Source: Micromonospora sp. NBC_01699 (GTDB lineage: Bacteria > Actinomycetota > Actinomycetes > Mycobacteriales > Micromonosporaceae). Taken from it: DNA of 64,000 bases. The translations under genes and the position numbers were made by a program. The notes under the pieces were generated by a model. The model searched no databases. It was given only the letters and a program-made list of their open reading frames with translations, and was not told the origin of the DNA. The stretch is taken from positions 4,898,001 to 4,962,000 of the forward strand of contig NZ_CP109199.1 in the NCBI RefSeq assembly GCF_036250065.1, written 5' to 3'. Within the stretch, counting starts at the first letter, position 1, and each line of letters opens with the position of its first letter. This document shows positions 1 to 34,520 of this stretch, piece after piece.

Positions 1-3000
1 AGCTGGTCACGCAGGGCGGCGACGGCGTCCCGGACGGTCAGCGCACCGGTGCGTACCCGGACCGGCAGGGTGTTGATGAACGGGCCGGGCACCCGGTCGG
101 CGCCGGCGCCGGCGTTCATCCGACCGAACAGGACCGTGCCGAACACCACGTCCTCGCGGCCGGAGACAACGGCGAGCGCCCTCGCCCAGGCGACGTGCAG
201 GATGGTCGCGGGACTGGTAGCGAGGTCGCGGGAAACCCGGCGCAGCCGGTCGGCCAACGAGGCGTCGAGCGGTACCTCGGCTCGCCGCTGGCCGGTGCCG
301 TCGCCACGGACGTCCAGCACCCCGTACGCGGCGGTCGGCTCGTCGACGTCGGAGAGCAGGGCGGCGAAGTACCGCTCGTGCTCCTCCTCGGCGGCGCCGC
401 CCCGGGTTTGAGCGACGAAGTCGCGGAACGGCAGCGGCCGGGGCAACTCGTCGGCCCGGCCGGACATGATCGCGCGTACCTCGGAGAGCAGCACGTCCAG
501 GCCGGTGTGGTCCTGCACGACGTGGTGGACCCGGATGAGCGCCAGCCACTGCCCGTCGGCGGTGGGAGTCAGCGTGGCGTCCATCAGCGGTGCACGGCTC
601 AGGTCCATCGTCAGACCCGTGACGGCCAGCAGCTCGTCCGTCCCGTCCGCGACGACCTCGCGTACGGGCAGGGTGGCGTGTCGCCGGACGACCTGGACCG
701 GTTCGGGCAGGCCGTCCCAGACGATCGAGGTGCGGAAGATGTCGTGCCGGTCCACCACCTGCTGCACCGCGGTGAGGAAGTCGTCGAGCAGGTGCCGGTC
801 GGCGAAGCGCAGGACGCTGGGCAGGACGTAGGTGTCCGGTCCGTCGCCGGCCAGCAGATGGTGGAACAGCAAACCCTCCTGTAACGGAGCCAGGGGATAG
901 ATGTCAGCGATATTCGCGGCACCACCATCGACGCTGACAGCGATCCGATCAATCTGCTCGACGGTCAGCTCAACCAGCGGCAACATATCCGGAGTAATCC
1001 CAGTGGCACCGACCGGAATCCGATTCGCCGGCACCTCCACCTGCCGAACACCAACACTAGCCGCCAACGCACCCGGAGTAGGAGTCTGAAAAAACGCCCG
1101 CACCGACACCACCACACCACGCCGACGCAACCACTCCACCAACCGCACCACCAACAACGAATGCCCACCCAACACAAAAAAATCGTCATCAACCCCCACA
1201 CCATCCACACCCAACAACTCAGCAAACCCCGCACACACCAACTCCTCCCGCACATTCACCGGCGCCCGACCCCCACCCCCAGACCACACCGGCACCGGCA
1301 ACCGCCCACGATCCAACTTCCCATTAACCGTCAACGGCAACGCATCCAAAACCACCACCGCCGCCGGCACCATATACCCCGGCAACCGCCGAGCCACCTC
1401 CCCCAACACCACCCCCGACAACCCCACCAAATCCACCCCACCCACCGGAACCACATAAGCCACCAACCGCACATCACCCCGAACATCCTCACGCACCACC
1501 ACCACCGCCCGCGACACCAACCCCACCGCCGCAACCACCGCCTCCACCTCACCCAACTCAATCCGAAAACCCCGAACCTTCACCTGATCATCAACACGAC
1601 CCACAAACTCCAACCGACCACCACCACTCCACCGCGCCACATCCCCACTCCGATACATCCGCCCACCCAAACCACCAAACGGACACGCCACAAACCGCTC
1701 ACCAGTCAAAGCAGCCCGCCCCAAATAACCCCGCGCCAACTGCCCACCCGACACATACACCTCACCCACCACACCCGGCGGCACCGGCCGCAACCCCGCA
1801 TCAAGCACAAACACCCGCAACCCCGGCAACCCCCGACCCACCACACTCCCCCCACCACCCGAACCCACCCGCTCAAACGTCACATGCACCGTCGTCTCAG
1901 TAATCCCATACATATTCACCATCACCGGCCCACCACCACCATGACGAACGAACCAACCCCCCAACCGACCCGGATCCAACGCCTCCCCACCAAACACCAC
2001 CACCCGCAACAACGACCCATCCAACAAATCCATCACCCCATAAAACGCCGACGGCGTCTGACTCAACACCGTCACCCGCTCCCGCACCAACAACGCCGCG
2101 AACTCCCCCGGCGACCGCGACACCTCAAACGGCACCACCACCACCCGACCACCATGCAACAACGCACCCCACAACTCCCACACCGAAAAATCAAACGCCG
2201 CCGAATGAAACCACGACCACACATCAGCACCATCGAACCCACCAAACAACCCCGCCGCACCCGCAAACAACCCCACCACATTCCCATGCGTAACCGTCAC
2301 ACCCTTCGGCCGACCCGTCGACCCCGACGTATAAATCACATACAACGAATGATCCACCAACACCGACACCGGCAACGCAACCGGCAACCCCGCCAACTCC
2401 GCGACGACCTCCACATCGTCCAGCACAACCACCGGCACCGGGCAATCAACCAACACCCCCACAGTCGCCGCCGAAGCCAACACCACCACCGGCCCCGAAT
2501 CCTCCAACATGTACCCAACCCGCTCCACCGGATACCGCGGATCCACCGGCACATACGCACCCCCCGCACGCACCACCGCCAACATCGCCACCACAAACTC
2601 CGAACCCCGACCCAACACCAAAGCAACCCGCGACTCCGGACCCACCCCACACCCCACCAACAAACTCGCCAACCGACCCGCCCGCTCATCCAACTCGCCA
2701 TACGTCAACCCCACACCATCCGCCACCACCGCCACCGCACCCGGCGCCCCCGCCACCACCGCCGCAAACAAGTCACCCACCGACACCGCCGGCACCACCA
2801 CCGGCACCGAATTCCACTCCACCAACACCCGCCGACGCTCAACATCATCCAAAACATCCACCGAAGACAACCGACGACCGACATCGGCCACCACCACACC
2901 CAGCACCCGACCGAACCACTCGGTGAGCCGGTGGGCGGTGTCCACGTCGAACAGGTCGGCGGCGGCGATCATCCGGCCGCGCAGCCCGGCCGGCGCGCCG

Positions 3001-6000
3001 GCTTCGTCGCGCTGTTCCTCGACGTTGAATTCCAGGTCGTAGCGAGCCACCGCCGGGCCGGTGGGAAACGGTTGGCTGTCGGTACCGGGCAGGGACGGGC
3101 CGGCGTCGATGGTGTTCTTCAGGGTGAGCACGACCTGCGCCAACGGGTGCCGGGCCATCGACCGCGCCGGCGACAACTCCTCCACCAGCCGCTCGAACGG
3201 CACGTCCTGATGCTCGAACGCGGACAGCCCGGTCTCCCGCACCCGGGCCAGCAGCTCGGCGAAGGTCGGATCACCGGACACATCCGTACGCAGCACCAAC
3301 GTGTTCACGAAGAAGCCGACCAGGTCGTCCAACGCCTCATCGGTCCGCCCCGCCACGACCGTCCCGATCGGCACATCCGCACCCGCACCCAACCGCGACA
3401 ACAGCACGGCCAATGCGGCGTGCAACACCATGAACACCGTCACGCCTTCGGCCCGCGCCACCTCCACTATGCGGGCGTGCACGTCGGCGGGAACGTCGAG
3501 GTCCACGCCATGCCCCCGGTGGCCGGCGACAACCGGGCGCGGCCGGTCGGCAGGCAGGGTCAGTTCCTCGGGGATGCCGGCGAGCGCCTCCCGCCAGTAC
3601 GCGGTCTGCCGCGTGGTCAGGCTGTCCGGATCGGACTCGGCACCGAGCAACTCCCGCTGCCACAGCGCATAGTCCGCGTACTGCACCGGCAGCGGCGTCC
3701 AGGTCGGGGCGCGGCCGAGCCGACGGGCGGCGTACGCGGTGGCGATGTCGCGCGACATCGGCGCGGCCGACCAGCCGTCGCTGGCGATGTGGTGCACGAC
3801 CAGCACCAGGACGTGGTCGGTGGGCGCGGTGCTGAACAGCCAGGCCCGGACCGGCACCTCGGTGGCGAGGTCGAACGGGTACGCGGCCGCGGCGGCGACC
3901 ACGTCGGCGAGGTCGTCGGGCGCGACGGTACGGACGGTGAGTTCCGAGCGCAGCTCGTCCGGGTCGAGGATCCGCTGGTACGGCTCGCCGTCGGTGGTCG
4001 GGAAGACCGTACGCAGCGCCTCGTGCCGGTCGATCACGTCGCGCAGCGCCGCGTCGAGGGCCGCCGGGTCGACGGTCCCGGACAGACGCAGGGCGACCGG
4101 GCTGTTGTAGGTGGCACCCGGCCCCTCCAGCCGCCCGACGAACCACAACCGCCGTTGGGCATACGACAGCGGGATCCGGTCGGGGCGGGCGCCGGCGTGC
4201 AGCGGCGGCCGTCCGGGGTGGACGCCGGTCAGCTGGGCGGCAAGGGTGGCCGGGGTGGGCGTGTCGAAGAGCTGCCGAATCTCCAGGTCGACGCCGAGGA
4301 CCACCCGGATCCGGCTGATCAGCCGCACGGCCAGCAGCGAGTGCCCGCCGAGGGCGAAGAAGTCGTCGTCGACCCCGACCGTGGGCAGCTCAAGCACGTC
4401 GGCGAAGGCGGCGCAGAGCAGTTCCTCGCGGGCGTTGGTCGGTTCCCGCCGGCCGAGGCCGCCGCCGGTGTAGTCGGGGGCGGGTAGGGCGGCGCGGTCG
4501 AGCTTGCCGTTGGCGGTCAGCGGCAGGTCGGCGAGCGGCACCACGGCGGCGGGCACCATGTGCTCGGGCAGCCGGGCGGCGGCGAACTGCCGAACCGTGG
4601 CCGGCAGATCGGCGTCGGCGGTGTCGTCCGGGTCGTCCGGGACGATGTAGGCCACCAGCCGCAGATCGCCGGGGATGTCCTCGCGGGCCACCACGGCCAC
4701 ACGGTCGACCGACGGGTGGGCGCTGATGACGGCCTGCACCTCGCCGGGTTCGATCCGGAAGCCCCGGATCTTGACCTGGTCGTCGGCGCGGCCGAGGAAC
4801 TCCAGCTGGCCGTCGGCGGTCCACCGGGCGAGGTCGCCGGTGCGGTACATCCGCTCGCCGGTGCCGAACGGGCAGGCCACGAAGCGCTCGGCGGTCAGGC
4901 CGCGCCGGCCGACGTAGCCACGGGCGAGCTGGGCTCCGGCGATGTACAGCTCGCCGGCCGCGTTGACCGGCGCCGGGGTGAGCGCGCCGTCGAGCACGTA
5001 GAGCCGCGTGTTGGCGATCGGCCGGCCGATCGGCACCAACGCGTCGACCGGGTCACCGGCGGCGATCACGTACACGCAGCATCCGACCACCGTCTCGGTG
5101 GGACCGTACTCGTTGACCACCACCGACCCGGGTGCGCGGGCCAGCCAGGCCCGCACGTCGGCGCCGGCCAGCGCCTCGCCGCCGACCACCCAGGTACGCG
5201 CGGCGCCGGCCGCCTCGGCGTCGCCGAGGGTGGCGGTCAACAGCGGCAGGTGCGCCGGGACCACCTTGGCGAGCCCGAACCCGCCGGCGGCGCGGACCAG
5301 GTCGACCAGGCCGTCGGTTCCGCCGGCCGGGCTGACCCAGACCGTGCCGCCGGAGATCAGCGGCACGACCAGGCTGGTCACGGTCAGGTCGAAGGCCAGC
5401 GAGGAGTGCAGCGGCGCGCTGCCGCCGGTCTCGGCGGCACGGTACGCGTCGGCCGCCCAGAGCACGTAGTTGGCTAGGCCACCGTGGGTGACGGCGACGC
5501 CCTTCGGCCGGCCGGTCGACCCGGAGGTGTAGATGATGTACGCCAGGGAGTCCCGCGCCGGCGTGACGGTGGACGGTGCGGTCGGCTGGGCGGCCACCAG
5601 GGCGGCGGTGCGCGGGTCGTCGATCGCCACGGCGCGGACCCGGCTGGCGGGCAGTTCGTCGAGCGCGTCGCTGGTGCCGAGGACCAGCGCGGCCCCGCTG
5701 TCGGCGATCATGAACGCCACCCGGTTCGCCGGGTAGTCGGGGTCGATCGGAACGAATGCGGCGCCGGTCTTCCACACGGCCAGCACCGACTCCACGGCCG
5801 CGACACCGCGCGGCAGGCACAGTGCGACCACCGACTCGACGCCGACGCCCTGGGCGGCGAGGAACCGCGCCAGCCGGTTGGCCCGGGCGTCGAGTTCGGC
5901 GTACGTCAGGCGCTCGCCGTCGCAGACCACCGCGACGGCGTCCGGGTGCTCCGCCGCTCGGGCCGCCGCCAGCGCGGGGACCAGGGTCTGCGGCAGTACG

Positions 6001-7352
6001 GCGGCGGTGTCGTTCCAGGTGTCGAGCAGCCGGTGCCGCTCGTCGGGGTCGAGGACGTCGGCGTGGGCGACCGGCTCGTCTGGTCCGGCGGTGCGCAGCC
6101 AGTCGAGGATGGCGGTGAAGCGGCGGGACACGTCCTGCTCGGCCAGCGCCGGGTACGCCTCCCGGTTGACCTCGACGGTGACCCGGGTGCCGTCGAGCGC
6201 GGGAGTGTCGAAGACGTTGATCCGTACGCTCGGGACGGCGCCGCTGGAGAGGTTGTGCGCGGTGGTGGTGCAGCCGGCGAAGGCGACCGTGAACAGGAAC
6301 GACACGTAGTTGAGTTCCACGCCGAACAGGCCGTTGCTGTCCAGCAGCTTCAGGTCGCGCAGCATGTCCTCGTAGCGGTACCGCTGGCGGCGTAGCCCGT
6401 CCCGGACCGCCCGGGACACCTGCCGTACCACGTCGACCACCGACGTGCCGGGGCGGATCCGGCAGCGCACCGGGATCACGTTGGAGGTCATGCCGGGGAT
6501 GGCGAGCGTGTGCCGGTTGGTGCGCCCGCTGACGGGCACGCCGATGACGATGTCGTTCTCACCGGTGGTCCGGTGCCGGTACACCGCCGCGGCGGTGATC
6601 ATCAGGCCGCCGAGGCTGGTGCCGAGACGACGGGCGGCGGCCTTCAGCTCGGCCGACGCGGTGGCGCTCAGGTCGCCCGTGTGTCGGGCGGCGGGGCCGG
6701 CCAGCCGGCGGCCGGACTCGGCTCCGGCCGGCGTCGGCAGGTCGGCGAGGACGTCGCGCCAGTACGCCCGGTCGTCGGCGAACTCGTCGGAGGCCCGGTA
6801 GTCGCGGTCGGCATCGAGCAGGACCGTCACCGAGTCGTGGGCGTCGCCGACCGGGTCGCCGGTGCCGAGGGCGGCGTAGATTTCAGCGGTGCGGGCGGCG
6901 ACCCGCCCGCCGGCGTACCCGTCGGCGACGATGTGGTGCGCCCGCTGGTACCAGTAGAACCGGTCCTCGGTCAGCTTGATGAGCAGGAAGTTGCCCAGCT
7001 GTCCGCCGCCGAGGTCCGGCGGCTGCGCCTGGTCGGCCCGCATCAGCCGGTCTGCGACAACCGCCGGGTCGGTCTCGCCGGTGAGGTCGAGAAACCCGGC
7101 GTTCGGCTCTACCGCGTGGTCGAGGTACTGCCGCGGTTCGCCGGCCACCAGGCGGATCCGGGTGAGGAAGGTGTCACTCTCGCCGACCGCCCTGCGCATC
7201 GCCTCGACGAACCGGGGTGCGTCGAGCGGACCGCGGATCTCAAGGTATTCCGCGACGTTGTAGACCGGGTTTTCGGGAGCGAACTGCTGGAGGTACCAGA
7301 TGCCGAGCTGGCCGGCTGTCAGTTCCCGGAGTCCACCGTCAGGCGTAGGCAT
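1..7352 (-). CDS. Non-ribosomal peptide synthetase, C-A-T-C-A-T-C (3' end beyond left edge)
   Basis: This multimodular NRPS runs off the left edge with about 2,450 residues visible. ATG at 7352 is preceded by GGGAG at good spacing and the protein begins directly with a condensation domain. The order is C1 (HHIVADG), A1 ([10 protein letters not shown] near residue 602, EYGPTE near 748), T1 (GGHS, Ser1005), C2 (HHIASDG, His1187), A2 (near 1500-2000), T2 (GGHS, Ser2065), and a partial C3 with YPLAPLQEG and HHVVQDH, which is a DCL- or dual-type look. The A1 pocket read by eye is DLTKVGEVGK, close to known Asn codes. A2 is DFWSVGMVHK, close to known Thr codes. No epimerase or thioesterase is visible. 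The A2-T2 block has codon use unlike the rest of the gene (see separate entry). An MbtH gene nearby is a likely partner of the A domains. Module boundaries are sound; substrates are inference. Confidence 0.95.
870..2920 (-). other. Codon-usage island spanning the A2-T2 unit of the NRPS
   Basis: Within the NRPS gene this block switches from GC-rich third positions to T- and G-rich codons (GTG, TTG, GGT, GCG, TTT), so the plus strand becomes rich in C and A. The change starts in the C2-A2 linker near 2920 and ends near 870, just before the first motif of C3. It therefore covers one complete adenylation-carrier unit. The reading frame stays intact and all core motifs are present. The boundaries match NRPS exchange units, which suggests the unit was acquired by recombination from a donor with different codon habits. 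Confidence 0.75.
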
Positions 7353-8830: not shown

Positions 8831-9871
8831 TCAGTCGGCGTGCGGCCCGAGGTCGCAGAGGTACATGCCGGGCAGCCGGTCGGACAGCTCGGCGCGCAAC
8901 GCGACGGAGTCGAACCGGTGCGACATCGGCGCGACCGGGTTCACGCTGATCGCGGCCAGCACGGTCGGCTCCAGCACCTCAATGGACACGTTCTGCCGGC
9001 GGTACCAGTCGCTGGTGCGCCGGGACAGGAAGACCTTCGAGCTGTCCGCCGTGACCAGCGAGACCTTGCGGCCACGCGCGGCGCGGCGGACGTCCTCGGC
9101 GAACGACTCGCACAGTGCGCCGCCCAGCACGACGTGCCGCAGCCCGTCCGGCCCGGCGAACAGCCGGCGCAGGTCGGTGCCGGTGCCGCCCAGGGTGAGC
9201 GCGCGGTCGACCGGCACCACCGCGCCGGAGTCTGTGATCGCCACGCTGCCCGTCGCCGTCGCGGCGGCGTCGTGCACCGCCGGGTCGTCCGAGCGGGGCA
9301 GGGCGAACACCTCGACCGCCGCGACGGTCTGCTCCACCACCTGCGCGAAGTCGGTGTGCAGGGCGGCGCCGGTGGCGAGCACCACCAGGTCGGCAACGGC
9401 CGGCGCGGACGCCGCCCGACGGTTGATCGCGCCGTCGACGAGCACGACGTCGGCGCCGTGCTCGCGCATGGCGGCGGTGACCTCGGCGGTGCCCCGGTTG
9501 GAGCTGGGGCCGGCCACCTCGGTGGCGCCGCCGGCCGGCAGCCGGGCGATCACGGTCTGGCCGAGCGGGGTGGAGTAGCCGGCGCGGCGCAGCACCTCGT
9601 ACGGCACGCCGGCGGCACGCAGCAGCGGCTCGGAGGTGGCCACCAGGCCGCCCGGCGGCAGCGGGATCCGCGGCTTGGGGATCCTCGGGTCGACCACGTC
9701 GGCGGTCTCGCCGTCGCGACCCACCGAGGTCAGACCGACGGTACGGCCGCGCCGGCACAGCTCGGCCAGGAGCGCGACCAGGGTACGGGTCTTGCCGGTG
9801 TTCTTGGCGAGGCCGATGACCGAGACGCGGTGCGCCCCGGCGATCAAATCGGCCAGGTCGGTGGCGCTCAC
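8831..9871 (-). CDS. kamB: KamB-like P-loop protein (putative aminomutase reactivase subunit)
   Basis: This 346-residue protein opens with a Walker A motif, GLAKNTGKT (about residues 20-28), followed by GLTSVGRDGE. These features recall KamB proteins of lysine-fermentation operons, annotated as a reactivase subunit of lysine 5,6-aminomutase. The GTG start at 9871 overlaps the kamE stop by four bases (GTGA), so the gene is almost certainly co-translated with kamE. No KamC-like partner is visible in the window. B12 aminomutases are inactivated during turnover, and an ATP-dependent partner would fit. The family assignment is from memory of motif and context. The gene ends 38 bases from the convergent P450. 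Confidence 0.7.
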   Translation of the reverse strand: MSATDLADLIAGAHRVSVIGLAKNTGKTRTLVALLAELCRRGRTVGLTSVGRDGETADVVDPRIPKPRIPLPPGGLVATSEPLLRAAGVPYEVLRRAGYSTPLGQTVIARLPAGGATEVAGPSSNRGTAEVTAAMREHGADVVLVDGAINRRAASAPAVADLVVLATGAALHTDFAQVVEQTVAAVEVFALPRSDDPAVHDAAATATGSVAITDSGAVVPVDRALTLGGTGTDLRRLFAGPDGLRHVVLGGALCESFAEDVRRAARGRKVSLVTADSSKVFLSRRTSDWYRRQNVSIEVLEPTVLAAISVNPVAPMSHRFDSVALRAELSDRLPGMYLCDLGPHAD

Positions 9872-10644
9872 CCCACGCTCTCGGCTGTCGGGGTGGCCGC
9901 GCGGCGGGCCACGAGTTCCTTGACGATGTACGTGCCGACGTGGTTCGGATAGGTGCCCTTGGAGAATCCGGCGTCGAACCCGAGTTCCTTCGCCAGCTCG
10001 TGCGACACCCGTGGCCCGCCGCAGATGAGCAGCATGCGGTCCCGGACCGCCTCGGCTTCGACGAGCTCCACCAGCTCGGTGAGGTTGTGCAGGTGCAGGT
10101 TCTGCTGGGTCACCGTCTGCGAGACCAGGATGGCGTCGGCATTGACAGCGATCGCGCGCTCCACCAGCCGCGCGTTGGGCACCTGGCTGCCCAGGTTGTA
10201 GACCTGGAAGCCGTGGTATGCCTCCAGCCCGTGCCGACCGTCGAGCCCCTTGGGGTTGAGCATGGCGTCTATGCCGACGCTGTGTGTGTCGGTGCCGGTG
10301 CTGGCGCCGACCACCACCACCGGGCGGCCGATCTGCTCGTCGACGAACCGCTCGATCTCGCGCTCCGTCAGGTACTGGATGTCGAAGGCGCCCTCGCGCA
10401 GCCCGGTGAAGTCGATCGCCTGCCGGCACTGCCCGATCACCACGAAGTAGGTGTACCCGTCGCACAGCCTTTGGAAGTGGACCACCTCCGGCTCGCTCAA
10501 CTGCATCACCCGGGCCAGTTCGAGGGCGGCATGGCGAGCCGACAGGCCGTACGGCACCGGAAGCGTGAAGGTCACCTGTACCAGGCCGTCGTTGAGACGG
10601 TCACCGTACGGCCGGACCGCTGACAGGTCGGCGGTCTCAGGCAT
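9868..10644 (-). CDS. kamE: Lysine 5,6-aminomutase beta subunit
   Basis: This 258-residue protein is the cobalamin-binding subunit of an adenosylcobalamin and PLP-dependent 5,6-aminomutase. The base-off B12 motif DxHxxG appears as DTHSVG (residues 119-124). The following NPKG places Lys132 where KamE carries its PLP Schiff-base lysine (K144 in the clostridial enzyme). Length matches KamE (about 260), not the fused OraE of ornithine 4,5-aminomutase. The ATG lies inside the end of kamD (8-base overlap). Known chemistry is beta-lysine to 3,5-diaminohexanoate or D-lysine to 2,5-diaminohexanoate. In this NRPS setting the product is probably a building block rather than a catabolic intermediate. 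Confidence 0.92.
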   Translation of the reverse strand: MPETADLSAVRPYGDRLNDGLVQVTFTLPVPYGLSARHAALELARVMQLSEPEVVHFQRLCDGYTYFVVIGQCRQAIDFTGLREGAFDIQYLTEREIERFVDEQIGRPVVVVGASTGTDTHSVGIDAMLNPKGLDGRHGLEAYHGFQVYNLGSQVPNARLVERAIAVNADAILVSQTVTQQNLHLHNLTELVELVEAEAVRDRMLLICGGPRVSHELAKELGFDAGFSKGTYPNHVGTYIVKELVARRAATPTAESVG

Positions 10645-12223
10645 GGGACGTCTCCTTCATCAGTTCCATGAACGGGTTCTGGTACCCGGCCTCGTGCTCG
10701 ACGATGCCCTCCACGCCCCGGCCCTGGCCCGGGTGCCGGGACACGTTGCCGAAGTAGCCCTTCTCGATCGCTCCGAACAACCCCATCTCGGCGATCTCCA
10801 GGAGCATCTGGTGCGCGTCGGCGAGGACGGCCGCCGCCCGGGTGCGGACGATCCCGCCGGGGCGGAACTCGATGTCGTCACCCAGGTCCCGCGCGAAGTT
10901 GCCGACGTAGCGGGTGTTCTCCAGGCCGTGCACCCGGTCATGGATGTGCGGGGTGAAGATGCCCTCGGTGGGCACACCAATGGTCTGGATCCCCTGTTTG
11001 GTGGCCACGGTGACCAGGTTGAACAGGGTGTCGACCGCGTGGGTGCGGAGCGGGTTGCCGTTCATGTGCACGGTTGGCGGCATGTACTTGACCGGGCAAT
11101 CCGGGAACAGCTCCCGGGTCAGCTGGGCCTGTGCCCACTCGTACAGCAGGCCGTTGGTGACGTCCGGGTGGATCTCGAAGGCGTTGCCGACCGCTATCTG
11201 CTCCGGCCGCAGGCCGCAGTCCCGCGCGATGAAGTAGTTGATCAGCTGGGAGGCCACGACGGACGGCGCGGCGGCGACCGCGTCGGCGGTACGCAGGTAG
11301 TTGTCCTCGCCGGTGTTGATGACGACGCCGAAGTAGCCGTTGATCATACGGGAGAACCGCTGGTCGATCAGGGTCCGGCGCTGGTTGATGTCGCGGTAGA
11401 GGATGCCGTACAGGGCGTCGTTGACCATGTTGTCGAGGCCCTCGATGGCGCCCATCGCCGCGATCTCCGGCATGCAGAGGCCGGAACAGAAGCTGGACAG
11501 CTTGACGTACCGGCCGTTCGCCCGCGACCAGCGGTCCAGCGCCTCCCGCATGACGGCGAAGTTTGCCTGGGTGGCGAAGGTGCCACCGAAGCCCTCGGTC
11601 GTCGGGCCGTACGGCACGTAGTCGAGCAGGCTCTGCGCGGTCGACCGGATGACGGCGACGATATCGCCGCCGTTCTCGGCGACCGCCTCGGCGTGGGCCA
11701 CGTCCTCGTAGACGTTGCCGGTGGCCGTCAGCACGTATATCTCCGGGGTTTTGGCGCGACGCGAGCCGTCGCCGTCGCGATCGCCATCCAGGCTGGCTCG
11801 GAACGCCGAACGCTCGGCCCGGGTGCCGCGGATCTTCTCCAGCGCCGCGGCGGCGTGCCGTCGGATGGTCTGCCGGATCTGCTCGTCGTCGGCGGTCGGC
11901 AGAGCGCAAAGGTCGAGTTCGCCGGCGCCGACCACCTTGGCGATCTCCAGCGGCTCCGCTCCGGTGGCGATGATGGCGTTGCCGAGCCAGTAGGCCAGGC
12001 CCCGCCCCAGCCCGCCGTGCTCCTGGACCCGGTCGACCAGCACATTGGGCAGCGGGACGTCGAGGTCGTCGACGCCGTCGACGCCGAGCAGCCGGGCGAC
12101 GGTCCGCTCCACCGACACCGTGGTCCTGCCGGCAGTGCGCTCTTCGACGTCACGGGCAATTTCCGCGGCCACCTCGCGGCACGAGCCGACCAGACCGGCA
12201 TCGAGGTCGAGTTTCGATTGCAT
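10637..12223 (-). CDS. kamD: Lysine 5,6-aminomutase alpha subunit
   Basis: This 528-residue protein matches KamD (about 520) along its whole length as recalled: an N-terminus like MESKLNLD, then AYWLGNA, EIYVLTATGNVYEDV, QSLLDYVPYG, TTEGFGGT, CSGLCMPEIAAMGA, DALYGILYRDIN and TGEDNYLRTAD. It forms the TIM-barrel subunit that holds AdoCbl and PLP together with KamE. ATG at 12223 has a strong GGGAGG site. The kamD-kamE-kamB set is translationally coupled, and the MbtH gene lies just upstream on the same strand. No lysine 2,3-aminomutase, racemase or downstream kdd/kce genes occur in the window, so the degradative pathway is absent here. Confidence 0.94.
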   Translation of the reverse strand: MQSKLDLDAGLVGSCREVAAEIARDVEERTAGRTTVSVERTVARLLGVDGVDDLDVPLPNVLVDRVQEHGGLGRGLAYWLGNAIIATGAEPLEIAKVVGAGELDLCALPTADDEQIRQTIRRHAAAALEKIRGTRAERSAFRASLDGDRDGDGSRRAKTPEIYVLTATGNVYEDVAHAEAVAENGGDIVAVIRSTAQSLLDYVPYGPTTEGFGGTFATQANFAVMREALDRWSRANGRYVKLSSFCSGLCMPEIAAMGAIEGLDNMVNDALYGILYRDINQRRTLIDQRFSRMINGYFGVVINTGEDNYLRTADAVAAAPSVVASQLINYFIARDCGLRPEQIAVGNAFEIHPDVTNGLLYEWAQAQLTRELFPDCPVKYMPPTVHMNGNPLRTHAVDTLFNLVTVATKQGIQTIGVPTEGIFTPHIHDRVHGLENTRYVGNFARDLGDDIEFRPGGIVRTRAAAVLADAHQMLLEIAEMGLFGAIEKGYFGNVSRHPGQGRGVEGIVEHEAGYQNPFMELMKETSHA

Positions 12224-12315
12224 GCACCCTCCCGGGCGAGTGAAGAGCCTGCGCCGGCCACCTGCCGGGGCGCCGGGTTGCGCCGGCGCCCCGAACCAGG
12301 AACATCCCGTACGCG

Positions 12316-12528
12316 TCAGTTGCCTTCCATGGCCTTGATCAGGCTCTTCGGCCGCATGTCGGTCCACGACTTCTCGATGTAGTTGAGGCAGTCCTGCCTC
12401 CCGGCCTCACCGAACACCGTTTCCCAACCGGCGGGTACGTCGATGAAGACCGGCCACAACGAGTGCTGCCCCTCCTCGTTGACGAGCACCAGATAGTTGG
12501 CGTCGGGATCCTCGAACGGATTCGTCAC
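12316..12528 (-). CDS. MbtH-like NRPS accessory protein
   Basis: This 70-residue protein has the complete MbtH signature: [10 protein letters not shown], a central GW, and WTDMRPKSL. It binds adenylation domains and supports their folding and activity. The start is GTG at 12528 behind AAAGGA; longer upstream extensions in frame look non-coding. It sits 92 bases upstream of kamD on the same strand and probably leads that operon. The 308 bases upstream (12529-12836) form the divergent promoter region with the hydrolase gene and show no other gene. Confidence 0.96.
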
Positions 12529-12836: not shown

Positions 12837-13745
12837 ATGAGTGGCACCGGTACGATCACCATCCGCCGGCACATCCGTGACAGGTTCACCTTCGAGACCC
12901 GCACAGTCGCCGGACCGGCGCCGGGCGCCACACCGGTCCTGCTGGTCGGTGGCGCCTTCCAGCACAAGGAGTCGTGGGGCCGTCTCGAACGGTTCCTCCT
13001 GGAGGAACGGCCGGTGATCACAGTGGACCTGCCCGGCTGGGGTGCGGCGGACACGCTGCCGGCCGACTACGACATCGATTTCCTGGCCGACACGCTGCGT
13101 CAGGCGCTCGACGAGCTCGGCGTGGCCCGGGTGGACATGGCCGTCGGCTCGTACGGCGCGATGATCGGCTATCGGCTGGCGCAGCTGTGTCCGGAGCTGG
13201 TCGAGCACCTGGTCATCATGGCCTGCCTGACCACGATCCCGGAGGCGGTGCGTCCCGCGGTCGAGCACAGCCTGACGCTGCTGCGGGAGCGGCGGATGGA
13301 GGAGTTCGCCGCGGCCACGGTGGCGCTGTTCATGTGCGCCGACACGTCCCGCACCATCGTGCACCGCATCGCGGTCGACCGGATCCTGACCCGCCGCTTC
13401 GCCACGGTCGGCGCCGACGAGGCCGAGAAGTACGTCCAGAACACCCTGCGCCTGCTCAGCCGCGACCATCTGGAGCCCGAGCCGGCGATCCGGACGCCGC
13501 TGTTGGTCGTCACCGGCGAGCACGATACGTACACCCCGCCGGACATCTCGCGCCGGGTGGCCCGGACCAGCACGGACGGCATCTTCGCGCTGATCGCCGA
13601 CGCCGACCACATGAGCCACCTGGAACGGCCGCGGGAAACCGCCGATCTGTTCCTCACGTTCTTCGGCGATCGGCCGGTCGAGGACCTGGAGTTCGTCGGG
13701 GCGGTCGAGCGCACCACGGCCGCGCCGGCCGAGGTGGGCGTCTGA
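12837..13745 (+). CDS. Alpha/beta-fold hydrolase
   Basis: This 302-residue hydrolase starts at ATG 12837 behind AGAGAGGA. The likely catalytic triad is Ser in AVGSYGAM, Asp in GEHDTYTPP and His in DADHMSHLERP. The nucleophile elbow reads VGSYG, so the first Gly of GxSxG is replaced. An oxyanion-type segment (VGGAFQHKESWG) precedes it. It does not look like a canonical type II thioesterase, which usually carries GHSMGA. Placed between the NRPS operon and an FkbM gene it may trim or release an intermediate, but its substrate is unknown. Confidence 0.85.
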   Translation: MSGTGTITIRRHIRDRFTFETRTVAGPAPGATPVLLVGGAFQHKESWGRLERFLLEERPVITVDLPGWGAADTLPADYDIDFLADTLRQALDELGVARVDMAVGSYGAMIGYRLAQLCPELVEHLVIMACLTTIPEAVRPAVEHSLTLLRERRMEEFAAATVALFMCADTSRTIVHRIAVDRILTRRFATVGADEAEKYVQNTLRLLSRDHLEPEPAIRTPLLVVTGEHDTYTPPDISRRVARTSTDGIFALIADADHMSHLERPRETADLFLTFFGDRPVEDLEFVGAVERTTAAPAEVGV

Positions 13746-13823: not shown

Positions 13824-14564
13824 CTACCGCGGCGGCACCCGGAACACGTAGTTGTTGGTGTGTGCGCACACCCGCTCGGTCGCGTGCCATCCGTTGCGCC
13901 ACAGGTACATGGTGTAGCCACGCTCTCGTAGCCAGGTCACAATGTCGTCCGGTCCGTACTCGTACCGGGCGGTGTGCCGGGCCTCGATCTCGATGTACAT
14001 CGTCGGCAGGTATTTCTCGATGGTCCGCTCGCCGCCGTGCAGCACGTGCAGCTCACCGCCCTCGACGTCGATTTTGAGGAAATCGAGCCGGGTGAGGCCG
14101 ACCTCGGCGGCCAGTTCATCCAATGTGGTCACGTCGACCATCACGTCGGCGTGGTGGGTGAACTCGTCGTTGGATCCGACGCCCTGCGAGCGCCAGTCCA
14201 GGAAGGAGCGGCTGGTCGCCGCTCCGCCGGGGCCGAACGGCACCCGCATGGCCACCCGGCCCGGCTCGGCGCCCATCGCGACCGGGTAATAGCGCACATT
14301 GGGCCGTGTCTTGGCGGCCAGCAACCGACTCCACAGTGGATGTGAGAAGGACAGTGGTTCCACGCTGTGCACCAGCCCGGCGGGGCCGACCAACTGGGAC
14401 AGCGCTTGGGTGTAGACCCCCGCCGCGGATCCAACGTCGACACACACGTCACCGCGCTTGACCAAGGTACGCATGGTCGGCAGTTCGTTGTCCAGAAAGC
14501 GTGTGTGACGAGCGACCAGGTTGGTGACGATGTGGGTGAGGGTCGATCGGTCGAGGCCGGGCAT
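13824..14564 (-). CDS. FkbM-family SAM-dependent methyltransferase
   Basis: This 246-residue protein carries SAM motif I, CVDVGSAAGVYT, and the FkbM hallmark FLKIDVEGGE followed by VLHGG. FkbM enzymes usually O-methylate hydroxyl groups of natural products or sugars. ATG at 14564 has GGAG upstream and is my preferred start. GTG at 14603 in the same frame would add 13 residues but has no clear ribosome site. It converges on the alpha/beta hydrolase. With two P450s in the wider cluster, methylation of a hydroxyl on the peptide is a reasonable but unproven role. The 294 bases downstream of the response regulator (to 14858) hold no evident gene. Confidence 0.88.
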   Translation of the reverse strand: MPGLDRSTLTHIVTNLVARHTRFLDNELPTMRTLVKRGDVCVDVGSAAGVYTQALSQLVGPAGLVHSVEPLSFSHPLWSRLLAAKTRPNVRYYPVAMGAEPGRVAMRVPFGPGGAATSRSFLDWRSQGVGSNDEFTHHADVMVDVTTLDELAAEVGLTRLDFLKIDVEGGELHVLHGGERTIEKYLPTMYIEIEARHTARYEYGPDDIVTWLRERGYTMYLWRNGWHATERVCAHTNNYVFRVPPR

Positions 14565-24171: not shown

Positions 24172-25971
24172 TCAGTCCCGCTGGGCGTCGACGTAGGCCG
24201 ACTCCTGCATCCGGTAGAGCTCGGCGTAGAGGGCGTCGTTGGCCATCAACTCGGCATGGCCGCCGGCTTCGACGATCCGGCCTTCGTCGACGACCAGGAT
24301 GAGGTCGGCGCTGCGGGCGGTGGAGAACCGGTGCGTGACCAGCAGCGTGATGGCTCCGGTCCGGGCGCCGACCCGTCGGGCGCTCTCGGCGTACCGGTCG
24401 AAGAGGTGGTGCTCGGCTTCGGCGTCCAGGGCCGCGGTGGGCTCGTCGAGCACGAGCAGGAACGGCGTCTCGCGCATCATCGCCCGGCCCAGCGCGAGCT
24501 TCTGCCACTGGCCGCCGGACAGGTTCGTTCCCTCGGTGTAGCTCTTCCCGAGGTGCGTCGACAGTCCGTCGTCCAGCCGGGCCATCACGTCGCCGGCGTG
24601 GGCCCGGTCGAGAGCATCGAGAACCGCCTGCTCGTCGTCGATTCGCGGGAGGTCCCCGACGCCGACGGTCTGCCGGGCCGGCAGCTCGTAGCGTACGAAG
24701 TCCTGGAACCCGGCCGAGATCCGCTCGCGCCAGGCGTCCAGCGGCAGCCGCCGGATGTCGATCCCGTCGATCAGGATGGCCCCATCGGTCGTGTCGTAGA
24801 ACCGGCACAGCAGCTTGACCAGCGTGGACTTGCCCGCCCCGTTCTCGCCGACGATGGCGACCGTGGAACCGGCGGAGAGGAGGACGTTCGCGTCCCGCAG
24901 CACCGGTGAGGTGGTGCCCGGGTAGACGAACCGCACCCCGCGCAGCTCGATACCGTCCCGGATCCGGTCGGGCATCTCCCGGTCCGCCGCCGCTGGCTGC
25001 TGCGCCGCGATGAGGGCGCGCAGCCAGCGCAGCCGCGAGAACCCCTTGACGATCTGCTGCATGTTGCGCAGCTCCTGCAACGTCTGGTTGACCTGCTGGT
25101 TCACCTGCGCCGCGAGTGTGATGACCAGGACGACCTCACCGACGGCACCCCGGCCGGTCACCGCCTGCCGCACCACGAAGAGCACCCCGAGCAGGTACGC
25201 GACGGCGAAGAACACCTGCCCGGCCGCGTTGACGGCGATGGCTCGTCGCTCGGCCGCGATCAGGGTGCGGCCCACCTCTGCCGCGAGTTCGCGATTGCGC
25301 CGCCGGAACTCGTCCTGGAGCCGGAACACGCGTAGTTCCTTGGCCGATTCCGCACCGGTCGCCAGCCGGAAGAGATGCCAGCCCTTCCGGTTGACCGTCG
25401 CCATCCGCTCCTTGGCCCGTTCGGTGATCGCCGTCGCGCGCTGCCCGCACAGCACCGGTGGCACGGCGGCCAACGGGAGCAGCAGCAGCCAGGGGTTCAC
25501 GAAGGCGAGGACCACGCTTGTCGACACCAGCGAGACGGCGAGCGTGGCCACGGTCATCAGCGCGCCGACCCCGCTGATGAGGCTGTGCAGCTCGCGTTGC
25601 AGGATGTCCATCCTGTCGGCGTAGTCGGCCCGCTCGTGATGGTCGAGCCGGGCGGAGCCGTTCGCGAGGGTGATCAGCTCCGCTTCGAGTGTGATGACCG
25701 CCAGGTCGGCGATCTCGACGTACGACGTGTAAGCGAAGTGGCGCAGCATCAGCACGCCGATCACGCCCACGCCGGTCAGCGCGCCCGCGATCGTCGCCCC
25801 ACGCACGTCCCGCCCGAGGGCGGCGCTCGTGGCGGCGGACAGGGCCAGGGCTACCAGCGGCCAGGCCAGCCCGGAGGCGATGCTGAGTACGCTCGCGGCG
25901 ATGAATTTGCGGCGGTTCTGCTGCCAGCCGACCCGCAGCATGGCTACACAGCTGGCAAGTGCGTCCTTCAC
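24172..25971 (-). CDS. ABC exporter half-transporter (permease-ATPase), second of pair
   Basis: This 599-residue protein has six hydrophobic segments in about residues 20-310. The nucleotide-binding domain shows Walker A GENGAGKST, Q-loop GFQDFVRYEL, signature LSGGQWQKLALGRA, Walker B FLLVLDEPTAALD and a switch His in VTHRFS. GTG at 25971 overlaps the stop of the preceding transporter gene (GTGA), so both halves are made together and probably form a heterodimeric exporter. The neighbourhood of NRPS pieces suggests peptide export or self-resistance. The gene ends six bases after the discoidin remnant. Confidence 0.92.
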   Translation of the reverse strand: MKDALASCVAMLRVGWQQNRRKFIAASVLSIASGLAWPLVALALSAATSAALGRDVRGATIAGALTGVGVIGVLMLRHFAYTSYVEIADLAVITLEAELITLANGSARLDHHERADYADRMDILQRELHSLISGVGALMTVATLAVSLVSTSVVLAFVNPWLLLLPLAAVPPVLCGQRATAITERAKERMATVNRKGWHLFRLATGAESAKELRVFRLQDEFRRRNRELAAEVGRTLIAAERRAIAVNAAGQVFFAVAYLLGVLFVVRQAVTGRGAVGEVVLVITLAAQVNQQVNQTLQELRNMQQIVKGFSRLRWLRALIAAQQPAAADREMPDRIRDGIELRGVRFVYPGTTSPVLRDANVLLSAGSTVAIVGENGAGKSTLVKLLCRFYDTTDGAILIDGIDIRRLPLDAWRERISAGFQDFVRYELPARQTVGVGDLPRIDDEQAVLDALDRAHAGDVMARLDDGLSTHLGKSYTEGTNLSGGQWQKLALGRAMMRETPFLLVLDEPTAALDAEAEHHLFDRYAESARRVGARTGAITLLVTHRFSTARSADLILVVDEGRIVEAGGHAELMANDALYAELYRMQESAYVDAQRD

Positions 25972-27905
25972 CTGTCGCCGCCCCTGCCGCCCGGTTTCCG
26001 GTCCGCGTGCTCCCGGTCCGGGTCCTCGTCGTCGCGATCCCGGTCGGGTCCGGCCGCGAACTGCATCGCTTGCAGCGTGAAGAGGTCGGCGTATCGGCCC
26101 CCGGCCGCGAGCAGCGAGCCGTGCGTGCCGTCCTCGACGACCCGGCCGTGTTCGAGCACGACGATCCGGTCGGCGTGCCGCACGCTGGAGAAGCGATGCG
26201 AGATCAGCAATGTCGTCACGCCACGGGTCAGCTCGACGAACCGATCGAAGAACGCCGCCTCCGCCCGTACGTCCAGGGCCGCCGTGGGCTCGTCCATCAC
26301 CAGCACCCGCGCGCCGGCGTCGAGGGCGTAGAGCGCGCGGGCGATCGCGACCCGCTGCCACTGCCCGCCCGACAGCTCTGCCCCGTCGTCGTACTGGCGG
26401 GCGAGCAACGTGTCGAAGCCGTGCCGCAGCACGTCGAGGGTTTCGGCGATGCCGGCCCGGCTGGCGGCCCGGCGTACGACCTCGGTGTCCACCGGCCGCT
26501 CGACGGCGCCGAAGGCGATGTTGTCCGTCGCGGACAGCTCGTACCGGTTGAAGTCCTGGAAGATGACGGCCAACTGTCGCCGCCACGAGTCGACCGCGAA
26601 GTCGCGGATGTCGTGTCCGTCGACCAGGACCGCGCCGGCCGTCGGCTCGTAGAGCCGGGCCAGCATCTTCACCAGAGTCGTCTTGCCCGCGCCGTTGAGA
26701 CCGACAATCGCGGTGCACTCACCGGCGCGCAGGGTGAGGTTGAGCCCGTCCAGCACCGGCCGGTCACCTCCGGCGTAGGCGAACGAGACGTCGGCGAAGC
26801 GGATGTCCCGTTCGGGCAGCCCGCGCGCGTCACCGGTGGCGTCGGTGGAGACGTCCCGCGCGGCGTACGACGCGACCTGCCGGTCGAACGACTCCATCGC
26901 CTCGCCCGCGGCCATGCCGAACTGCGACTGGTTGTCCGCCTCGGCGTAGTAGTCGCCGAGCAGGATCGCGGCGATCGTCGCCTGGAGCGCGAGCGCGAGC
27001 CCGGTCAGGGACAGCTGCCCCTGGGCGGCCGAGCGCACCACCAGCGCGAGCACGGTACCGGCCGCGGCCAGGCCGAGCACGGTGAACCACCGGAAGCGGC
27101 CGACCAGCATGCGCCGGCGTTCCACCCACAGCGGCTCCAGCCCGGCCAACGCCGCCTCGCGGTAGCGATGGACCACCCACTCGGTCAGGCCGAAGACACG
27201 AAGCTCCTTCGCGGCCGGCCCGAGCACGCCCAGATTGCGGAAGTAGTCCCGGCGGCGGTGCAGCGGACTGATCGTCGGCCATACCCGCATGTAGATGCGC
27301 AGACCGCTGCGGTGGCCGTAGCGGAAGCAGAGGGCGCACACCGCCGTCGCCAGCGCGGCCCACCAGCCTGCCACGACCCCCAGCAGGACGAGGAAACCGG
27401 CCAGCGACGTGTACCGGGTCAGGTAGGCCAGCGTCCCCTTGGCCGCGTCGCCCGGACTCATCCAGGCCGTCTCCAGCTGCTCTGCGGCCCGTTGCAGGTC
27501 GCCCAGCACCTTCTGGTCCTCCAGCGGCGCGATGCCCGTGCTGCTCAACGAGGTGTCGACCAGACGGGCCCGAAAGACGGCGTTGACCCGGTGCCGCATC
27601 ACGTCGCCGAGCGACAGCGCGACCGGGACCAGCAACTGCTGTAGGAAGAAGGCGCCCGCCGCGACCAGGAACGCGGCGACCAGGCCGTCCCACGACGCCG
27701 ACCCGACTCCGTCCCGCGACGCGTCGGGTGCCCGTCCCACGACGACGCTCGTCGCGATGACGAAGGCCACCGGCAGCAGGCCGAGCAGGACGTTGAGCAG
27801 GGTCAGTGAGACCAGCACCCCGCGCCCGCCGAGTTGCAGGTGACGGATGACGAAGAGTCGGGGTGTGGTCACCTCGGTCAGATAAGCTGCCAAGCGCATT
27901 GGCAT
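25968..27905 (-). CDS. ABC exporter half-transporter (permease-ATPase), first of pair
   Basis: This 645-residue protein has hydrophobic segments at about 28-50, 75-100, 165-200 and 275-310. Its ATPase domain shows Walker A GLNGAGKTT, Q-loop IFQDFNRYEL, signature LSGGQWQRVAIARA, Walker B VLVMDEPTAALD and switch SHRFS. The last 30 residues are a highly charged Asp/Arg tail. ATG at 27905 or 27899 can start it and neither has a clear ribosome site, so a short-leader transcript is possible. It is divergent from the unknown gene at 28203 and coupled to the downstream half-transporter. Confidence 0.9.
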   Translation of the reverse strand: MPMRLAAYLTEVTTPRLFVIRHLQLGGRGVLVSLTLLNVLLGLLPVAFVIATSVVVGRAPDASRDGVGSASWDGLVAAFLVAAGAFFLQQLLVPVALSLGDVMRHRVNAVFRARLVDTSLSSTGIAPLEDQKVLGDLQRAAEQLETAWMSPGDAAKGTLAYLTRYTSLAGFLVLLGVVAGWWAALATAVCALCFRYGHRSGLRIYMRVWPTISPLHRRRDYFRNLGVLGPAAKELRVFGLTEWVVHRYREAALAGLEPLWVERRRMLVGRFRWFTVLGLAAAGTVLALVVRSAAQGQLSLTGLALALQATIAAILLGDYYAEADNQSQFGMAAGEAMESFDRQVASYAARDVSTDATGDARGLPERDIRFADVSFAYAGGDRPVLDGLNLTLRAGECTAIVGLNGAGKTTLVKMLARLYEPTAGAVLVDGHDIRDFAVDSWRRQLAVIFQDFNRYELSATDNIAFGAVERPVDTEVVRRAASRAGIAETLDVLRHGFDTLLARQYDDGAELSGGQWQRVAIARALYALDAGARVLVMDEPTAALDVRAEAAFFDRFVELTRGVTTLLISHRFSSVRHADRIVVLEHGRVVEDGTHGSLLAAGGRYADLFTLQAMQFAAGPDRDRDDEDPDREHADRKPGGRGGDR

Positions 27906-28103
27906 GTGCTTATGCTATCGACCACGCCGCGTTCCGTGGGGGCGTCCGGATCCGAAGGGTCGTGGATGCCGATCGAGTCCGGGCCCGTCGCTCCACACCG
28001 GACGAAATCCATCCGAACGCGCAAGGGCTGCGGGCGCCGCATTCTTGGGACATAATATCGGCTGATCCGGCCCGGTCGTCTCGCGCGCCTGCGCGGCCCC
28101 TGA

Positions 28104-28202
28104 TGTCTTTCGTGGGTTGGCGACGACACCGACTTCTTCGAGCCGGATCGGAATTTCGTCACCGTCATCCTGCTGCTGTCGTCCATCAAGGAGAAGTACG
28201 GC
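28104..28202 (+). pseudogene. Possible carrier-protein remnant, in frame with the next gene
   Basis: The open frame directly upstream of and continuous with the 28203 gene reads GDDTDFFEPDRNFVTVIL followed by a helix ending IKEKYGV. This has the shape of acyl/peptidyl carrier protein helix II (DDxDFFE.gg.SL..V.L...I.E.yGV), but the phosphopantetheine Ser position is Phe. No start codon exists in this frame after the stop at 28101. It is either a decayed carrier protein or chance similarity. The rest of 27906-28103 shows only divergent promoter space. Confidence 0.3.
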
Positions 28203-29234
28203 GTGCGTTCCCTGCCGATCCGCGTCCAGCGACTGGTCAACTCGAAGGCGTACGCCGCGCTGCCGCTGTGCGCGGTGCTGGGCGCGGGCCTGGACTCGTG
28301 GTTTTCCCACCGGTTCGTGCAGCTGTGCTCCTACCGGCTCACCTCACGACCCGACGAGCACATCCTCGACTACCCCGACTCCTTCGCCTACACCACCTTC
28401 CTGGACGCCTCGGCCGTCTCGCGGGAGGCGGCCGGATCCCTCGGGCCCCTCGTCGACTTCCTGCACGCCCGGTTCGACGAGGGCCGCTATTCGATAGTCA
28501 TGCTGGACAGCAGGCGGCTGACCGGCGCGGGCCCGCACATCCGCGAGTTCCTGTTCTCCGGCTCCGACGGCAACGGTGACCTGCTCGCCACCGGGTTCGA
28601 CGGCGACGCCAGATTCACCGCGATGACGTTTCGGCCCGACGACCTGAACGACGCCTTCACCAGCGGCCTGGACGCGATGCGTACCGAGGGCCAGCTGCAC
28701 CTGATCCGGTCGGTCATCCAGACCCTGCGCCCGCCCGACGCCGACGAACCACTGTCCCTCGACCGGATCTACGCCGAAATCTGCCGATACCTGGCCTGCA
28801 CACCGCCGCCGGGTTTCACCGTCACCGACGGCTGGTGGTGGTACGACCGAGCCGTCGACCTGGCCGCGACCGCACCCGTCCGCTTCGGCATCTCGACCCA
28901 CGACGACGTACGCGAGCATCTGGAGCTGGCGGCGGGCGGGGCCGTGCCGGTCGACTACCCGATGCTGCACCTCTACTACGAGCACAAGCGGCTGCTGCTG
29001 CACCGGCAGGGCCTCCTCGCCTTCGGTCGGCATCTCGACCAGCCGGAGCGGGCAGTCGCCGGATACGGCCGGTTCGTCGACGAGGTGAACCGGTTCCGGC
29101 TGGGCATGCTGATGGGCATCGCCGAGGGGCGGCGGCCGACAGGCGACGACGTCGCCCGGTTCGGTGGCTTCGAGGAGCGCGAGGGGGACCTGCTGGAACG
29201 GTTCCTGACGCTCGCCGAGCGCGGCGCGGTGTGA
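28203..29234 (+). CDS. Conserved-looking protein of unknown function
   Basis: I do not recognise this 343-residue protein. It starts at GTG 28203 with AAGGAG nine bases upstream. It is soluble-looking, with no signal peptide. The N-terminal part contains LCAVLGAGLDSWFSHRF, the middle a Trp-rich TDGWWWYDRA, and the C-terminal third is helical and charged (YYEHKRLLLHRQ). It ends nine bases from the convergent carrier-protein gene. GC-rich third positions support real coding. Its place among dissociated NRPS genes suggests a role in that pathway, perhaps on a carrier-bound substrate, but no catalytic motif is evident. Confidence 0.75.
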   Translation: MRSLPIRVQRLVNSKAYAALPLCAVLGAGLDSWFSHRFVQLCSYRLTSRPDEHILDYPDSFAYTTFLDASAVSREAAGSLGPLVDFLHARFDEGRYSIVMLDSRRLTGAGPHIREFLFSGSDGNGDLLATGFDGDARFTAMTFRPDDLNDAFTSGLDAMRTEGQLHLIRSVIQTLRPPDADEPLSLDRIYAEICRYLACTPPPGFTVTDGWWWYDRAVDLAATAPVRFGISTHDDVREHLELAAGGAVPVDYPMLHLYYEHKRLLLHRQGLLAFGRHLDQPERAVAGYGRFVDEVNRFRLGMLMGIAEGRRPTGDDVARFGGFEEREGDLLERFLTLAERGAV

Positions 29235-29243
29235 TCGAGAGGG

Positions 29244-29855: not shown

Positions 29856-29971
29856 GTGGCACCGGATTCGGGTCAGGGGGCGAAAAGCCCCTCGGCGGCC
29901 TGGTCGACCCGAAATTAACACACGGCTGACATTGTCCTCTGTCGCTCGATGAGCGCACGCCGGGATGGTTA

Positions 29972-30000
29972 CCGAACAACGACACCAAACGGTTGTTCGG
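29972..30000. promoter_or_regulatory. Perfect 9-bp dyad CCGAACAAC / GTTGTTCGG
   Basis: Two perfect 9-bp arms surround an 11-base spacer in the 353-base gap between the divergent carrier-protein genes. The half-site CCGAACAA is the same motif as the tandem repeats just to the right, so this is probably part of one composite operator. Confidence 0.5.
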
Positions 30001-30020
30001 GAGTCCGGACGAAGCGGCGA

Positions 30021-30050
30021 GCCGAACAAGTCCGAACGGATCCGAACAGT
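30021..30050. promoter_or_regulatory. Tandem operator: three CCGAAC repeats at 10-bp period
   Basis: CCGAAC occurs at 30022, 30032 and 30042, each followed by a four-base spacer (AAGT, GGAT, AGTG). The exact 10-bp phase puts the repeats on one face of the helix, as for direct-repeat binding activators of SARP/AfsR style, which usually use 11 bp. The same array occurs near 35876 and 36531. It lies 159 bases before the carrier protein-P450 operon. The other bases of the gap show no gene. Confidence 0.6.
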
Positions 30051-31737: not shown

Positions 31738-31752
31738 CCGCCGGCCGGATCG

Positions 31753-34487: not shown

Positions 34488-34520
34488 ACCGTCTCCTTTG
34501 TCTTGTACGTGATCATCGGC

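Follow-up and report, generated by a model that had tools for sequence, protein, structure and literature searches.

A lysine 5,6-aminomutase operon in a nonribosomal peptide synthetase cluster of Micromonospora sp. NBC_01699 and its probable role in diamino acid supply

We analyzed a 64-kb stretch of the Micromonospora sp. NBC_01699 genome (bases 4898001-4962000 of the single-contig, 8.28-Mb genome, labeled G000; G+C content 66–73%; hereafter the window), in which an operon for a lysine 5,6-aminomutase lies beside the genes of a nonribosomal peptide synthetase (NRPS). That this enzyme was recruited to the NRPS cluster is well supported, because the operon contains an MbtH gene, the cluster recurs in a second genus, the genome has a separate catabolic copy of both subunits, and no fermentation genes were found at the examined loci of the enzyme's clade. 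The likeliest building block is 2,5-diaminohexanoate (5-methylornithine). Judged from sequence comparisons, the subunits KamD and KamE (together KamDE) with the reactivase KamB probably convert lysine to this compound, which adjoining NRPS modules would activate as a free amino acid.

The genes of the operon are arranged in the order MbtH-KamD-KamE-KamB (Table 1). KamD and KamE overlap by eight bases and KamE and KamB by four, while 92 bases separate MbtH from KamD. KamD, KamE and KamB each exceed the cut-off of the NCBIfam equivalog for their respective role as alpha subunit, beta subunit or reactivase. These results confirm a preliminary description of this DNA, which had recognized the three genes as coupled by short overlaps behind an MbtH gene. 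KamE is a separate gene with OAM dimer and B12-binding domains (PF16554, PF02310), and a PDB search returned lysine 5,6-aminomutases as the nearest solved structures for both subunits. Against the OraE model for D-ornithine 4,5-aminomutase (cut-off 800 bits), KamD scores 114 bits and KamE 144 bits.

According to a review of the family (PMC3958899), Lys144 of KamE is the pyridoxal phosphate (PLP) lysine of the family; R184, S189, S238, Y263, R268 and N299 of KamD contact PLP, Y236 makes a hydrophobic contact, and D298 is also discussed. Both the PLP-lysine motif NPKG and the cobalamin motif DTHSVG are present in the window KamE, as the preliminary description had stated for the lysine and for DxHxxG. 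In KamD, residues R184, Q188, S189, S238, Y263, R268, D298, N299 and K370, the last of which we take to be an active-site residue, are kept in all 19 members of the clade described below and in all 107 other copies compared. Since all three proteins lie above their equivalog cut-offs and the catalytic residues are retained, we assign them as a lysine 5,6-aminomutase with its reactivase; the operon appears to encode an intact and presumably active enzyme. Like the KamDE enzymes of known structure (PDB entries 1xrs, 8t0v and 9q1a), it has two full-length subunits, the PLP lysine, DxHxxG and the checked KamD residues other than Y236, with KamB present. It differs from them in its clade, in a Y236F exchange next to PLP, in having no KDD, KAL or KamA alongside, and in its NRPS setting.

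Lysine 5,6-aminomutase is known as a fermentation enzyme, and the same genome carries a second kam locus (L004, G000:3771872-3780205). In addition to its own KamE and KamD (G000:3774410-3776023), this locus contains KAL, KDD, a MutL/GlmL-type protein and a KamA-family radical S-adenosylmethionine (SAM) protein, which scores 171 bits against TIGR00238, below the cut-off of 199. Its KamDE belongs to the same family and lies above the NCBIfam cut-offs that the window enzyme exceeds, but its KamD is only 48% identical to the window KamD. With KamDE of its own at this locus, lysine degradation can do without the window genes. None of KDD, KAL, a KamA-like protein or MutL occurs within the window, as the preliminary description had said of the remaining fermentation pathway; it had also named a degradation pathway dependent on these genes as a finding that would refute it, and most of such a pathway does exist elsewhere in the genome, with its own KamDE. 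One BKACE-family gene is located at 7.50 Mb. The window KamB is the only KamB match of the genome. KamD matches with 44–51% identity to the window protein are present in 38 of 60 other relatives searched. For 29 of these 38 a locus was available, and all 29 cluster with the L004 copy in the tree.

The cluster recurs in one other genome, G246, from another genus of the same family. There, genes for P450, KamB, KamE, KamD, MbtH, hydrolase and FkbM-type methyltransferase occur in matching order, and KamD is 88% identical to that of the window. KamB is carried by two of 354 genomes of the family, two of 397 of the order and one of 394 of the class; these samples overlap and all include the window's own genome, so that G246 is the only other carrier. 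A plasmid collection yielded two KamD records, both below 60% identity.

To place the enzyme, genome contigs were scanned with the window KamD and the best 80 loci were kept. Among these, three loci from metagenome-assembled genomes (MAGs) of the Solirubrobacterales reached 66–69% identity, followed by clostridial, Bacteroidales and other copies at 51–56%. A quick tree of 113 KamD sequences united the window, G246 and four Solirubrobacterales copies in one group with an SH-aLRT (Shimodaira-Hasegawa-like approximate likelihood-ratio test) support of 100, with a warning for long branches. In 201 genomes around one Solirubrobacterales MAG, 15 genomes hold 17 KamD copies that are 63–70% identical to the window protein. 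A more careful tree, with 56 rows for 19 clade members and 37 of the 107 others, gave a clade composed of the window, G246 and the 17 Solirubrobacterales-type copies, with bootstrap and SH-aLRT values of 100/100 and recovery in 200 of 200 bootstrap trees; KamD of the catabolic type and of clostridia lies outside it.

The neighborhoods of the two groups differ. Among the 77 non-clade loci from the best 80, KDD lies beside KamD at 38 of the 44 that are longer than 20 kb (exceptions: L069, L070, L075, L080, L084 and L094). At the 18 clade loci (the window, contig C34 of G246 and 16 Solirubrobacterales-type loci with the 17 KamD copies) KDD, KAL, KamA and MutL are all absent, which is a weak test as the 16 Solirubrobacterales-type loci are only 6.6–17.9 kb long. 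KamB accompanies 16 of the 17 Solirubrobacterales-type copies, being absent at L189. These results bear on the explanation that the operon is a spare catabolic enzyme that came to lie beside the NRPS by chance. Lysine fermentation is the setting in which KamDE and KamB are otherwise known, and KDD, KAL and the BKACE-family gene are indeed found elsewhere in the genome; however, KamDE is also present at the catabolic locus itself, the window KamD belongs to a different clade, and the operon starts with MbtH and recurs together with the cluster in another genus. We therefore regard a chance neighbor as very improbable. A duplicated catabolic enzyme was rejected on the basis of the KamD trees and neighborhoods.

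All 17 Solirubrobacterales-type KamD copies adjoin genes resembling aminoacyl-tRNA synthetases. At 14 of them the partner is similar to lysyl-tRNA synthetase (LysRS) and at the other three to arginyl-tRNA synthetase (ArgRS). The ArgRS-like genes form one protein family and also occur at two of the LysRS loci, giving five in total; the three that were scanned all match PF00750. Of the three loci with an ArgRS-like gene only, two are confirmed by Pfam and the third by clustering only. The Kam-linked LysRS is additional to the ordinary one in the three genomes checked. In the numbering of LysU (1e1o), the exchanges Y280M, N424S and F426D are found in 14 of 14 Kam-linked paralogs with E278 and E428 retained, whereas the ordinary LysRS keeps Y280, N424 and F426 in all three genomes. 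Structural work places Y280 and F426 beside the lysine side chain. An acidic residue along the chain together with a methionine at its end would suit 2,5-diaminohexanoate, with its amine further inward and a terminal methyl group, and is suggestive in this respect. Both Kam-linked paralogs that were scanned keep the OB-type anticodon domain PF01336. All 12 genomes that encode a LysRS with 76% or more identity to the query also have KamD.

A LysA-like decarboxylase is encoded at two Solirubrobacterales-type loci; the one scanned scores 285 bits, below the LysA cut-off of 298. The only tRNA gene at six loci scanned was a tRNA-Thr in L040. Rfam gave no match in 129 kb from five sources, so no cobalamin riboswitch was found there. 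As a separate observation, ten further LysRS paralogs (L213-L221 and L223) carry F280, nine of them with GGGTD replacing NAFSE; their flanks, as far as fetched, are free of Kam genes.

Since all 17 Solirubrobacterales-type copies have synthetase-like neighbors and the 18 clade loci examined have none of KDD, KAL, KamA and MutL, the KamD clade seems linked to amino-acid activation. Partners of this kind would fit a product that undergoes activation as an amino acid, and a tRNA synthetase may activate a lysine isomer in the Solirubrobacterales-type genomes. A wider, tentative proposal, to which we give clearly less than even weight, is an anabolic KamD clade whose 2,5-diaminohexanoate would be activated by adenylation (A) domains in two genomes and by LysRS and ArgRS paralogs in the Solirubrobacterales-type genomes, maybe with transfer to tRNA.

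The assembly line comprises about 30 modules on the minus strand and extends to the left of the operon. Its genes encode 6337, 7430, 1070, 2729, 10385 and 4564 residues as called by a custom script; together they contain 30 complete A domains plus one fragment. The preliminary description had placed the operon next to an NRPS; the assembly line does adjoin it, except that a P450 gene on the plus strand intervenes. MbtH proteins assist A domains. Asp at position 278 of an A domain accompanies basic side chains in known codes, and four of the 30 domains have it: two with the code DTWDLGLVDK (99% identical domains, one being the third A domain of NRPS 1, left of the window), one with DTWDMGFVDK and one with DAVDMGLVYK. 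The inspection of A-domain codes left of the window that had been recommended thus yielded four candidates for a diamino acid, and we infer that the three DTWDxGxVDK modules, including the nearly identical pair, are the best candidates for receiving it. In G246, 12 A domains were found on two contigs, with DTWDLGIVDK, DTWDLGLVDK and DAVDMGLVYK ordered as in NRPS 2. The code DVWHISLVDK, which we take to be Ser-like, occurs in nine of the 30 domains, and the number of modules may therefore be affected by repeat assembly. The NRPS of 10385 residues (G000:4817626-4848783) has ten A domains in a single called gene, six of them with the Ser-like code, which is possibly an assembly effect.

Three genes between NRPS 1 and NRPS 2 encode a 2-oxoglutarate (2OG)-Fe oxygenase, a dihydrodipicolinate synthase (DHDPS)-like aldolase and an aminotransferase-like PLP enzyme. 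In G246 the trio keeps its order on another contig (82% identity for the oxygenase, 81% for the PLP enzyme). Close relatives of the oxygenase occur in the same two of the 354 family genomes, with weak matches in 15 more. Its PF10014 domain is of the isoleucine 4-dioxygenase type, and it scores 56 bits against the HilB equivalog, whose cut-off is 350. An assignment of the PLP enzyme as the enduracididine cyclase GntC was rejected: GntC is the best of 78 models, but the score of 267 bits lies below the cut-off of 415, and PDB chains named aminotransferases outscore GntC (8fft).

This trio raises the alternative that 2,5-diaminohexanoate is only an intermediate and is converted to a hydroxylated or cyclic residue, e.g. 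of the 5-methylproline type. The position of the trio between NRPS genes, its conserved order and the action of such families on free amino or keto acids fit this idea. Its distance of approximately 20 kb from the kam operon argues against it, as does the fact that the best named model for the PLP enzyme, although below its cut-off, acts on γ-hydroxyarginine; the trio could thus make a separate, arginine-derived residue, for which the MppP/MppR/MppQ route is a parallel (PMC10367076). On balance we consider the intermediate role unlikely, if the least unlikely of the alternatives.

A further alternative concerns the substrate. If the enzyme used β-lysine, as in fermentation, its product would be 3,5-diaminohexanoate, incorporated as a β-amino acid. 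Published 5,6-aminomutase accepts β-lysine, and the KamA-family protein at L004 may make β-lysine available, despite its score below the TIGR00238 cut-off. No relative of this protein occurs at the 18 clade loci, however, and the candidate A domains carry D235, which is usual for an α-amino group. The synthetase-like partners in the Solirubrobacterales-type genomes also speak for an α-amino acid, their ordinary substrates being of this kind, but the LysRS paralog EpmA/PoxA prefers β-lysine (PMC9437257). The β-lysine route is accordingly rated as improbable, more so than conversion by the trio. The preliminary description had left both diaminohexanoates open as NRPS building blocks; an aminomutase serving the cluster is the part that stands well supported, and the preference for the 2,5- over the 3,5-isomer is what we infer.

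Based on these comparisons we propose the following pathway for 2,5-diaminohexanoate. KamD and KamE, dependent on adenosylcobalamin and PLP, would move the amino group at the end of the lysine chain from C6 to C5, with KamB reactivating KamDE. At least one module of the neighboring NRPS, with an acidic pocket residue, would then activate the predicted product, 2,5-diaminohexanoate, as a free amino acid, and MbtH would aid the A domains.

Several points weigh against this proposal. Published lysine 5,6-aminomutase prefers D-lysine and L-β-lysine. The trio may modify this residue, or it may supply the same modules with a different basic one. Six A-domain code strings, including the three acidic-pocket ones, have no match in the open-access literature, so the assignment of modules is a guess from Asp278; none of four code prefixes appears in the main text of PMC12283262, on A-domain codes. 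In the LysRS tier of 59–63% identity, two Kam-linked genes stand beside seven with L280/D426 (L153 and L207-L212), which have no Kam gene in the short flanks fetched. Six of these seven lie in genomes without a KamD match, although the genomes are possibly incomplete; the LysRS pocket is thus suggestive only, and its uniqueness to Kam-linked genes is weakened. Finally, 14 KamD positions (including N235S, Y236F, F267Y, L405T and A412G) are fixed differently between the 19 clade members and the 107 others, with at least 95% on both sides of the split. A control split, in which the 30 copies from the window's relatives, L004 among them, were compared with the 77 others, gave 23 such positions, so the count of changes is no proof of new specificity, and we dropped that argument. 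The sole notable exchange is Y236F at the PLP-contact site (Phe in each of the 19 clade members and Tyr in each of the 107 others), which is not in the control list.

Coordinates of the operon, its neighbors and the related loci are collected in Table 1. Two other regions of the window contain NRPS-type genes. The region 24172-35774, with two ATP-binding cassette transporters, two proteins with condensation domains, and a carrier protein and an A domain that are each free-standing, is perhaps a second small NRPS cluster; a gene within it (30535-31737) is P450-like by eye only. At 59110-63999, an unusual open frame of 1629 residues, which exits the window, fuses NRPS condensation, adenylation (Cys-like code), carrier and thioesterase domains with a major facilitator superfamily transporter.

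Table 1. Positions of the aminomutase operon, neighboring genes and synthetase-linked loci. Coordinates without prefix refer to the window.
Feature	Coordinates	Strand	Remarks
NRPS 1, N-terminal part (6337 residues as called, six A domains)	3-7352	-	continues left of the window
Cytochrome P450	7596-8792	+	PF00067; same place in G246 (C34 6753-7949)
KamB, reactivase P-loop protein, 346 residues	8831-9871	-	NF052386 281 bits, cut-off 210
KamE, beta subunit, B12-binding domain and PLP lysine, 258 residues	9868-10644	-	NF052385 351 bits, cut-off 280; PDB 9q1a_A, E 3.8e-86
KamD, lysine 5,6-aminomutase alpha subunit (TIM barrel), 528 residues	10637-12223	-	NF052384 763 bits, cut-off 600; PDB 8t0v_A, E 1.7e-178
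MbtH-like protein, first gene of the operon	12316-12528	-	PF03621, 99.7 bits
Alpha/beta hydrolase	12837-13745	+	PF12697; adjoins operon in G246 too
FkbM-type methyltransferase	13824-14564	-	PF05050; adjoins operon in G246 too
Class I/II aminotransferase-like PLP enzyme	G000:4882892-4884076		between NRPS 1 and NRPS 2; best NCBIfam model GntC, below cut-off
DHDPS-like aldolase	G000:4884139-4885029		between NRPS 1 and NRPS 2
2OG-Fe oxygenase	G000:4885157-4885984		between NRPS 1 and NRPS 2; PF10014, 103 bits, cut-off 23
kamDE (with kamB except at L189) adjoining extra LysRS paralog	L039 3256-8202; L040 1084-6154; L041 3497-13426; L182-L191		
ArgRS-like class I synthetase-related proteins, 468-598 residues	L192 5104-6813; L193 9807-11603; L194 6098-7888; L041 13746-15152; L189 9815-11239		

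Lysine 2,3-aminomutase provides β-lysine for peptides such as viomycin and streptothricin. As there, an aminomutase would turn lysine into a diamino acid loaded by an NRPS; the enzyme of those pathways is a radical SAM enzyme that shifts the α-amine, whereas the window enzyme is B12-dependent and would shift the terminal amine. The synthetase-linked loci resemble the β-lysylation of elongation factor P by EpmB and EpmA/PoxA. EpmB is a 2,3-aminomutase and EpmA has no anticodon domain, in contrast to the two Kam-linked paralogs scanned. In that system a LysRS paralog acts on a lysine isomer (for PoxA, PMC9437257), as may be the case in the Solirubrobacterales-type genomes, and in the main text of this review on synthetase paralogs the word aminomutase does not occur.

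The preliminary description had called the proposed use unfamiliar from described pathways, and we likewise found no 5,6-aminomutase with an NRPS, an antibiotic gene cluster or tRNA activation in the open-access literature, judged largely by title; subscription literature was mostly outside this search, so a precedent is possible. The names 5-methylornithine, 5-methyl-ornithine and delta-methylornithine gave no match in the open-access literature, and compounds written with 5-diaminohexano- appear there, by title, in work on microbiomes, metabolomics, fermentation and enzymology. Tambromycin, which we take to be lysine-derived, was considered as a precedent and set aside, as none of the open-access titles listed links it to a 5,6-aminomutase.

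If the proposal is correct, recruitment of lysine 5,6-aminomutase to secondary metabolism would add a B12- and PLP-dependent radical route to non-proteinogenic diamino acids and would help genome mining for new basic peptides. Through the relatives of Solirubrobacterales type, it also becomes a testable question whether modified tRNA synthetases activate a lysine isomer.

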